A stretch of 64,000 nucleotides of DNA from the NCBI RefSeq assembly GCF_041154675.1, contig NZ_AP031322.1, forward strand, positions 2,045,812-2,109,811. Direction: 5' to 3'. Every line of letters begins with the position of its first letter. Positions within the stretch are counted from its first letter, which is position 1. A program made the translations under genes and the position numbers. Shown in pieces: positions 24,686-64,000 of the stretch. The notes beneath the pieces are model-generated. The model searched no databases, had not been told where the DNA came from, and saw only the letters and a list, made by a program, of their open reading frames with translations. The stretch is from Sulfurisphaera javensis (GTDB lineage: Archaea > Thermoproteota > Thermoprotei_A > Sulfolobales > Sulfolobaceae).

Positions 24686-25105
24686 ATGATAGATAAAATA
24701 TTTGAAATTGGTTTAAAGAATTTTTTAAGTTTTTATCCACAAGAATTTGTTAGCTTAAGAGATGCACTTAATGGAAAATTAAGTATAAAATTGTCTGACG
24801 GATATTCTCACACTATGAAGATAGAAGAAATTAAAAAACTTTCTAATATTATTCCTATATATTTATGGTCTTTAGTAAAGATACCTTTTGTAATAGTAAA
24901 GACGTTAGATCCTGGAGAATATTTGGTTAATGGAAGTGAGTGGGAGATTAAGGCATTATCGATCTTACTTAATAAAGATGTAAGCAAGGGACTAAGGACT
25001 GGAGATGTTGAAAAAATAATAAAAGAATATAAATCTTTAATAATTATAACATTAAGTCCTATAAGTATTGCGAAAGAGGATGAGGAAGATGGTTACTATT
25101 ACTGA
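24686..25105 (+). CDS. DUF61 (UPF0216) family protein
   Basis: 139 aa. Contains LRDALNGKLSIKLSDG, FVIVKTLDPGEYLVNGSEWEIKALS and a C-terminal VSKGLRTGDVEKIIKEY, the signature of archaeal UPF0216/DUF61 proteins. Function is unknown in the family. It starts directly after the fibrillarin stop and overlaps the next gene, so it belongs to an RNA-modification operon (nop5, flpA, this gene, HTH gene, trm1), which makes an RNA-related role plausible but unproven. Confidence 0.75.
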   Translation: MIDKIFEIGLKNFLSFYPQEFVSLRDALNGKLSIKLSDGYSHTMKIEEIKKLSNIIPIYLWSLVKIPFVIVKTLDPGEYLVNGSEWEIKALSILLNKDVSKGLRTGDVEKIIKEYKSLIIITLSPISIAKEDEEDGYYY

Positions 25106-25964
25106 TGTTGCTGAATTGCTTTCAAAAAGATCATTAGAGTATTCTATGATTAATTACCCAGATAAAAAAGAGAAATCCATAGATATAATAGCTGTTAATA
25201 GAAATAGTAGAATGATAGTTAAGATAGTAGAAAGTAAAAAATCATTAAAAGTTAAATCTGATCTGAAAAATATTGCTAAAATTGGTCTTGGTATTCCTGT
25301 TATTATAGATGAGTCAACTGAAGAAGAGATAATAAATGACAAAGGAAACATTCTTGGAATGAATATAGAAACATTTCAGAAAATATTAGATGGAGAAAAA
25401 GTTTTCTTATACAAGACAAGGGGAGGACTTTTCGTTAAAATAAATTCAAAAGAGTTAAAAAAGAAAAGAGAAGAAATGGGGTTAAGTCTAGGAGAAGTCG
25501 CTCAAGCTCTTGGAGTTTCCAGGATTTCGATATATGATTATGAAAGGGAAGATTCTTATGTTTCTATTGATATAGCTGAGAAATTAGTAGAGTTATTTGG
25601 AGAAGAAATTTTAGGTGATGTTTTAAGTAATTTTAAGGTTGAGGAAAAAACTGATACAGAGTCTTACGATACAACTGATAAGATGAGTATAAGCTTAACT
25701 GAAAAAGGGTTTAAAGTTGTAAGAATGAACTTTACGGCTGTTGATATTATTGCATTAAAGGGAGATAGAAAAATTATGTTTTCAATGGAAGATGAGAATG
25801 TAAACAAATCTTTAAAGAAATTTAGCGAAGCGAAAAAGATTACTAATAAAATGAGGGCGGAACTAATAGTAATAGTGAAAGAGAGTAAAAGTAAAAAAAT
25901 ATATGAAAAAGAGGACTTTAATACTCTTACTGAAAACGAAATTATGAGCTATGAATTTGATTGA
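25089..25964 (+). CDS. Putative HTH-type transcriptional regulator (COG1395-like)
   Basis: 291 aa from the ATG at 25089, which has a purine-rich ribosome-binding stretch just before it; an earlier in-frame ATG at 25068 adds seven residues. An N-terminal nuclease-fold-like domain (residues 1-110) precedes a Cro/C1-type helix-turn-helix (KKREEMGLSLGEVAQALGVS, then SIYDYERE), and a further alpha/beta domain follows. This three-part layout matches a conserved archaeal family of putative regulators. It overlaps DUF61 upstream and trm1 downstream by about 15 nt each. Confidence 0.8.
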   Translation: MVTITDVAELLSKRSLEYSMINYPDKKEKSIDIIAVNRNSRMIVKIVESKKSLKVKSDLKNIAKIGLGIPVIIDESTEEEIINDKGNILGMNIETFQKILDGEKVFLYKTRGGLFVKINSKELKKKREEMGLSLGEVAQALGVSRISIYDYEREDSYVSIDIAEKLVELFGEEILGDVLSNFKVEEKTDTESYDTTDKMSISLTEKGFKVVRMNFTAVDIIALKGDRKIMFSMEDENVNKSLKKFSEAKKITNKMRAELIVIVKESKSKKIYEKEDFNTLTENEIMSYEFD

Positions 25965-62777: not shown

Positions 62778-63164
62778 ATGGAAACCCAAACTATTTCTCT
62801 AATTTCAGAAGATAGAATAATAGGAAAACATGTTTTTGGAAATCTATACGATATAGATCCAAAGATATTAAGCGACAAAGAATTTTTACATGAAATAGTA
62901 TTAGAAGCTGTAAAAATAGCTAACATGAAATTAGTAGAAAGCAAAGCATGGGAATTTGGAGGAAGGAAAGGCGGAGTTTCAGTTATAGCTCTCGTGGAAG
63001 AAAGCCATATAGCATTACATACATGGACTGAATATAACTATGCAACCCTTGACGTTTATACTTGTGGCGAAAATAGTAATCCTCAAGCTGCTTTTGAATA
63101 TATAGTCTCTAAACTAAAGCCTAAGCGGTATCAAATGTTTTACGCTGATAGGAGTTCAGAGTGA
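62778..63164 (+). CDS. Pyruvoyl-dependent arginine decarboxylase (AdoMetDC family)
   Basis: 128 aa proenzyme. [27 protein letters not shown] is the AdoMetDC-family core; self-cleavage between E75 and S76 would make the pyruvoyl group, with C96 as catalytic acid. The [12 protein letters not shown] start and [12 protein letters not shown] end fit the crenarchaeal branch that became an arginine decarboxylase making agmatine, rather than true AdoMet decarboxylase. Adjacency to HMG-CoA synthase also agrees with the Sulfolobus arginine decarboxylase locus as I remember it. Substrate choice is not proven by sequence. Confidence 0.75.
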
Positions 63165-63242
63165 GCTGAGCAAATCATCTTTCATACGTTTTTTCTCATC
63201 ATCTAAATTGAGATATTTTTTTGATTTTTAAATTGATATTCG

Positions 63243-63272
63243 ACAAATGTCTATGAATTCATAGACATTTGT
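63243..63272. promoter_or_regulatory. Perfect 30-bp palindrome upstream of HMG-CoA synthase
   Basis: A perfect inverted repeat of two 15-bp halves, with half-site ACAAATGTCTATGAA (63243-63257) and centre GAATTC. Symmetry ends exactly at 63242/63273. It lies about 10 nt upstream of the BRE/TATA of the downstream gene and 78 nt after the arginine decarboxylase stop. This is a likely operator for a dimeric or tetrameric regulator; as RNA it would be an uncapped loopless hairpin. Confidence 0.7.
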
Positions 63273-63279
63273 AGAAACT

Positions 63280-63293
63280 CTTTTTATTTTAAA
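63280..63293 (+). promoter_or_regulatory. TATA region of HMG-CoA synthase
   Basis: CTTTTTATTTTAAA, with the core centred near 63285, about 26 nt upstream of the ATG at 63312, predicts a leaderless transcript. The 30-bp palindrome ends 8 nt before it. Confidence 0.55.
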
Positions 63294-63311: not shown

Positions 63312-64000
63312 ATGAGTTCTGGTATAATAGGATGGGGAGCGTATGTTCCTCGTTATAGATTAAATGTCTTAGAGATAGCAAAATTATGGGGATATGATGA
63401 AGGTGTAGTAAAAAGTTTAGGCTTAACCGAAAAAGCTGTTCCTTCATTTGATGAGGATTCTACTACTATGGCATGGGAGGCAGCTAAAAATGCACTAAGT
63501 AGGGCAAGAGTAAATCCATCAGAGATAAAGGCTGTACTTTTTGGATCAGAATCAAAAGTTTATGCTGTTAAGCCTACTTCTACAATAATAATTGATTCGC
63601 TAGGAATTTCACATGAGACATTAAGTGCAGACTTGGAATTTGCATGTAGGGCAGCATCTGTAGGTTTAAGGCTGATAGCTGGTATGGTAGACTCAAATAA
63701 AATTAAATATGGTTTAGTTATAGGTAGTGATGTAGCTCAATCTAATCCAGGAGATGTACTTGAATTAAGCTCTGCTGCAGCTTCTGTAGCTTATGTAGTA
63801 GGTCCAGCTAGCGAATCTTCAGCCATAATTGAGTATTCTACCTCATATACTACTGATACTCCAGACTTTTGGAGAAGGGATGGTATGCCTTATCCACTTC
63901 ATGGAGAATCGTTTACTGGAGAACCTGCTTACTTTGCTCATATTATTTCGGCAGTTCAACTCTTGTTAAAAGAGGGAGGATATAGCATTTCCGATTTTGA
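63312..64000 (+). CDS. Hydroxymethylglutaryl-CoA synthase, N-terminal part (cut by window edge)
   Basis: 229 codons before the window ends. [23 protein letters not shown] starts the thiolase-like fold; [10 protein letters not shown] gives the catalytic Cys C112, and PFWRRDGM-like [21 protein letters not shown] follows, as in archaeal HMG-CoA synthases. It condenses acetyl-CoA and acetoacetyl-CoA for the mevalonate route to isoprenoid lipids. The start is the first ATG after the TATA box. Thiolase and DUF35 genes usually follow in archaea but lie outside this window. Confidence 0.92.

Follow-up and report, generated by a model that had tools for sequence, protein, structure and literature searches.

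The operon for HMG-CoA synthase (HMGS) in Sulfurisphaera javensis is preceded by a 38-bp element composed of two 14-bp dyads with the unit TMGACANNTGTCKA. The element adjoins the BRE/TATA of HMGS and is almost certainly a DNA operator site. It is very probably the operator of the HMGS operon, with two dimers of the COG1709 protein binding the dyads and setting entry into the mevalonate pathway.

Anatomy of the element upstream of HMGS

The window analysed here is a stretch of DNA of 64,000 nucleotides, and positions are those of the window unless given as genome positions. The features concerned are the following.

62778–63164, plus strand: gene for S-adenosylmethionine decarboxylase (speD), the upstream gene, outside the unit formed by operator and HMGS
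63239–63276, plus strand: 38-bp two-dyad element, almost certainly an operator, TTCGACAAATGTCTAT-GAATTC-ATAGACATTTGTAGAA, conserved before HMGS (profile match E 8e-8)
63240–63253, no strand: dyad A, the distal site, TCGACAAATGTCTA, an exact match to TMGACANNTGTCKA
63243–63272, no strand: perfect 30-bp palindrome, the core of the 38-bp element, as read from the sequence
63262–63275, no strand: dyad B, the promoter-proximal site, TAGACATTTGTAGA, with one mismatch to TMGACANNTGTCKA and touching the BRE
63274–63293, plus strand: putative BRE and TATA region (gaaactc / TTTTTATTTTAAA), placed from the sequence by archaeal promoter rules
63312–63998, plus strand: 5' part of HMGS, with its ATG at 63312; the window ends inside the gene (full length 348 aa)

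An earlier note on this DNA had reported a perfect 30-bp palindrome 8 nt upstream of the TATA element, and its coordinates are borne out. The sequence ACAAATGTCTATGAATTCATAGACATTTGT (63243–63272) is a spacer-free, exact palindrome, and 8 nt separate its end from a TATA-like T/A-rich stretch starting at 63281. The second-longest perfect palindrome within the 64-kb window measures 16 bp, while the longest seen in 20 simulated first-order Markov windows is 22 bp. A perfect palindrome of 30 bp is expected 0.0004 times per window, or ~0.016 times per 2.57-Mb genome. The same note described two exact 15-bp half-sites of one dyad; the sequence is indeed exact, but each half is better read as a complete predicted binding site, the pair being arranged face to face.

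The dyad centres are 22 bp apart (two helical turns), or 23 bp in some genera, and the consensus form among relatives is TTCGACAAYTGTCTAT-N6-ATAGACAATTGTCGAA. Exact 30-bp symmetry is peculiar to the Sulfurisphaera javensis genome, the element being imperfectly symmetrical in close relatives, and arose because both dyads and the GAATTC spacer became mirror images in this species. When four genomes of the genus were compared, the operator had 32 invariant positions out of 38, and the sequence upstream of it 56 out of 96. The TATA is located ~26 nt before the HMGS ATG, a distance from which the HMGS transcript is probably leaderless.

The identity of HMGS is given by two equivalog models, NF003274 and TIGR00748, both scoring above cut-off. 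Together with genes for a thiolase, a DUF35 protein and HMG-CoA reductase, it forms a tight operon with overlapping genes (genome positions 2109123–2112889). A single operator would therefore cover the first two committed enzymes as well as the thiolase feeding them. The original proposal of a regulator on the first committed step of the mevalonate pathway had the correct target in HMGS, but understated the reach of the control, as the thiolase and HMG-CoA reductase would be co-governed.

The perfect palindrome could in principle fold as RNA, and given its location downstream of speD it might be a transcribed hairpin, either a speD terminator or another RNA element. We consider this very improbable. 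T-rich tracts (63187–63231) are already present between speD and the element, the distance to the HMGS TATA/ATG is fixed while the upstream gene varies (COG1709 or others), and conservation tracks the dyad positions and their helical spacing. An Rfam search with the palindrome returned no family at gathering score and sub-threshold chance matches only. Since the element is tied to HMGS and not to the upstream gene, a terminator or RNA element is disfavoured, and the earlier preference for an operator over a speD terminator holds.

A C/D-box sRNA-like sequence (GATGATGA...CTGA) was observed at 63154–63206 on the minus strand, antisense to the 3' end of speD. Within it, the stretch CTCAGCTCACT is kept across many Sulfolobaceae. 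The sequence gives a weak match to Rfam sR17, under the gathering score.

Conservation and target range of the element

Each of the 31 Sulfolobaceae genomes examined has the element directly before its HMGS gene (recognised by eye in L023 and L027), at a constant position before the TATA. The earlier note had named absence of the dyad upstream of orthologous HMGS genes as the observation that would speak against it; the dyad is present there in 31 of 31 Sulfolobaceae and in other phyla. A chance origin of the palindrome might be argued from the confinement of its perfect form to the Sulfurisphaera javensis genome, with odds slightly raised by an AT-rich genome. Against the low expectation per genome given above, and the retention of the element before HMGS throughout the 31 genomes, the probability of this explanation is negligible. 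The earlier judgement that chance was improbable can hence be sharpened: as far as comparison of sequences goes, chance is already refuted by conservation.

Genome-wide sites were counted by pattern and profile searches. In 60 whole genomes, the operator profile reaches E<1e-3 at HMGS promoters only, and the sole outlier at E<0.01 (G011:C1:941396) falls within an 899-aa ORF. Single TMGACANNTGTCKA dyads with one mismatch number 7 in the Sulfurisphaera javensis genome versus 12 for the reversed control, and secondary profile matches are mostly within coding regions or not common to genera. A larger regulon was rejected, given that single dyads are no commoner than the control and that the secondary matches are coding or unshared. 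By these searches, the element is a single-target operator, the HMGS operon being effectively its sole site per genome. The near absence of other sites, together with the strong candidate COG1709, supports the dedicated regulator that had been proposed.

Two single dyads were observed elsewhere. One, TTCGAYAATTGTCTAAAACTTTCGAAAA, is intergenic and conserved in at least two genomes of genus g5 (L097 and L105, ~position 2000), where it lies upstream of a PIN-like gene and is possibly a second target. The other (TAGTCAACTGTCTA / TAGACAAATGTCTA) is located in L053 and L092 (genomes G000 and G001), flanked by two small genes of opposite strand (minus and plus), and is a possible minor target.

COG1709 as the predicted reader

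One of the genome's XRE proteins has 236 aa and is encoded outside the window, at genome positions 490306–491013; from its make-up we identified it as a member of COG1709. This group, listed as a 'regulator' among archaea-specific proteins (PMC1852104), is nearly archaea-wide, and mere co-occurrence with the element is therefore weak evidence. The prediction of COG1709 as the reader is well supported by three lines: adjacency to HMGS, presence of the operator at the junction, and co-loss.

Of 200 genomes of the phylum, ten from family f14 (Methanomethylicota) and one from family f36 have COG1709 immediately upstream of HMGS and in the same orientation. When 80 COG1709 loci were fetched from genome records, HMGS was present in 12, in every case as the next gene downstream and on the same strand; these adjacent loci include Archaeoglobales, Theionarchaea, Thermoplasmata and Altiarchaeales. 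We take MJ1545-MJ1546 of Methanocaldococcus to be a further case of this adjacency, and MJ1545 is mentioned in no paper of the open-access literature searched. COG1709 does not adjoin HMGS in most genomes, Sulfurisphaera javensis included, and the two are far apart in Sulfolobaceae. Separately, an apparent tRNA gene in divergent orientation, recognised as a reverse-complement tRNA sequence, was observed next to COG1709 in nearly every Sulfolobaceae genome as well as in several more distant lineages (L119-L129, L149-L167, L142-L146).

In the eleven f14 and f36 genomes with this gene order, COG1709 and HMGS are ~115 bp apart, and the gap holds the two-dyad element before a TATA box, with 22-bp spacing; the element at the L168 junction reads TCGTCTTTTGTCGA-TATATAAA-AAGTCAACAAACGA. 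A two-dyad element, also with 22-bp spacing, lies between COG1709 and HMGS in L261 and L266. For the Archaeoglobales locus L251 this gap is too short, and the element is found before COG1709 (TCGATAAATGTCGA-TTTTAATT-TAGACAATCAGTTA). Theionarchaea carry the element at both the COG1709 and HMGS promoters, a partial element precedes the gene pair in L274, L279 and L285, and none was found at the COG1709-HMGS locus L272. A scanning matrix trained on Sulfolobaceae HMGS promoters alone picked the element as the best place of the entire locus in L212, L214, L215, L228, L251, L261 and L279. With this matrix, the element is also detected at the HMGS promoters of two Thermococcus genomes (p<=0.01; a third at 0.027), of Methanofastidiosum and of two Bathyarchaeota.

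Single dyads abut the TATA of COG1709's own gene in several Thermococcus loci, and one is likewise present at its promoter in G040, which suggests that COG1709 may be autoregulated in some lineages. No site was found at COG1709's own promoter in Sulfolobaceae.

Co-loss is apparent in Sulfolobales outside Sulfolobaceae, where the element (p<=0.05 per promoter, uncorrected) precedes HMGS in 18/25 genomes with COG1709 and in 0/10 without. Fisher's test for association of the two gives 1e-4 with kinship ignored, and the COG1709 losses lie in two families (f10 and f3), hence few independent events. No significant element was found in the other seven COG1709-bearing genomes of this set, nor in most Thermoproteaceae-like genomes, in which HMGS is inside another operon.

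A second long XRE protein was considered as reader. The window encodes a COG1395-type (PRK04140-like) XRE regulator at 25068–25964, and this type is present in 59 of 60 relatives. COG1395 is like COG1709 in its XRE HTH, its archaea-wide occurrence and in being uncharacterised, but differs in domain order, and its presence does not follow the operator: four operator-less genomes were tested, and three of them encode it. As it is present where the operator is missing, and no HMGS adjacency was noticed, COG1395 was set aside. COG1709 itself scores 20.9 bits against the PRK04140 model NF003162, far below the cut-off of 263.

The element could still be a true operator of the mevalonate operon with a different reader, the link between COG1709 and HMGS having another cause. 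COG1709 as binder is a prediction, made for a protein encoded far from HMGS in Sulfolobaceae, and the GACANNTGTC dyad presumably resembles the TACANNTGTA operators of the BlaI/MecI/CopY winged-helix repressors. It also resembles the Tar site TGGACA-N8-TGTCCA (PMC6737238). We regard a different reader as unlikely, as it would require the repeated adjacency with a junction element in several phyla to be coincidence, and likewise the co-loss and the dyads at COG1709's own promoter.

The features of COG1709 are consistent with the role of reader. Its HTH_3 domain matches PF01381 with 48.2 bits (cut-off 23), and PF01381 also matches all 37 aligned homologues. Across archaea the recognition-helix region SVISDYE.GRR hardly varies, which is what a conserved operator would lead one to expect. 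In the structure model (pLDDT 91.5, pTM 0.77), residues 20–77 adopt a five-helix Cro/CI fold that matches many XRE structures at Z 6.6–8.2. The C-terminal domain has a DRTGG fold: it matches AF1212 (2ioj) at Z 12.0 and an rmsd of 2.8 Å across 116 residues, well clear of the unrelated matches. The regulatory region of the Clostridium perfringens pyrophosphatase (3l31) is a further DRTGG structure of this fold; sequence identity is 16%. By sequence, the DRTGG family is hardly recognised: its Pfam profile (PF07085) matches weakly in 2 of 37 members, with a best E of 0.013. In known enzymes, DRTGG domains serve as regulatory modules, and we therefore infer a sensor role from the fold. The C-terminal domain may sense a metabolite or nucleotide of acetyl-CoA/isoprenoid metabolism.

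Predicted mode of action and place of the circuit

COG1709 is predicted to act as a one-component regulator; its Cro/CI (XRE) HTH is N-terminal and its DRTGG-like domain C-terminal. Both dyads would present the same helix face directly upstream of the BRE/TATA, and two COG1709 dimers would occupy them, probably cooperatively as a tetramer. Bound beside TFB, COG1709 would set the output of the HMGS promoter, and with it the flux into archaeal membrane lipids. XRE folds on two-dyad operators are known among the controller proteins of restriction-modification systems; in the present element, most lineages have a centre-to-centre distance of 22 or 23 bp between the dyads. C.Esp1396I (3clc) shares the XRE fold, its tetramer (two dimers) sits on two adjacent dyads over ~35 bp, and the HTH part of the COG1709 model matches it at Z 6.7. 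Controller proteins are nevertheless single-domain proteins of ~80 aa encoded beside restriction genes, whereas COG1709, at 236 aa, has a second domain and is associated with a metabolic operon.

The same regulator might act as a repressor, with COG1709 blocking TFB/TBP at the BRE until released by a ligand. Both activation and repression are known for controller proteins with comparable double operators, and in Thermococcus loci the single dyad lies against the TATA box of the gene for COG1709 itself. In addition, dyad B touches the BRE, making repression nearly as likely as activation, and we place its probability somewhat short of even. Sites upstream of the BRE/TATA are, however, typical of archaeal activators, Tar and others (PMC6737238). 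From this position alone, COG1709 as an activator is slightly favoured over repression.

Tar (TK0271) of Thermococcus kodakarensis, an activator of aromatic amino acid operons (PMC6737238), is one of the closest known systems: an archaeal one-component regulator with a palindromic site directly upstream of the BRE/TATA of biosynthetic operons. It differs in using a single palindrome at three operons, in contrast to the paired GACANNTGTC dyads that precede one operon here. The HhcR (TrmB family) regulon of Sulfolobales likewise has a conserved palindromic box found by comparative genomics. HhcR differs in having many carbon-fixation targets, in belonging to another protein family, and in not being known outside Sulfolobales. 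As an XRE one-component regulator, COG1709 would stand out by its DRTGG-like sensor, its double dyad and its one target conserved across phyla.

In the open-access literature searched, neither a regulator of the archaeal mevalonate pathway nor a function for COG1709 was found described. For gene-level control of the isoprenoid membrane-lipid supply of archaea, the present work provides a site, one target operon with the rate-setting HMG-CoA reductase among its genes, and a near archaea-wide candidate protein. The candidate system is accessible in the genetically tractable Sulfolobus acidocaldarius and Thermococcus kodakarensis. Apparently the cis-regulatory element can still be recognised from one phylum to another, an uncommon property among prokaryotic operators. 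We see an even chance that COG1709 and the two-dyad operator constitute a circuit for membrane-lipid synthesis that goes back to an early ancestor of the archaea. The sequence and spacing of the operator would then have stayed recognisable between Thermoproteota and euryarchaeal lineages, and the DRTGG-like sensor would report a metabolite state. If true, this ancestral circuit would fill in archaea the role that control of HMG-CoA synthase and reductase by sterols has in animals.
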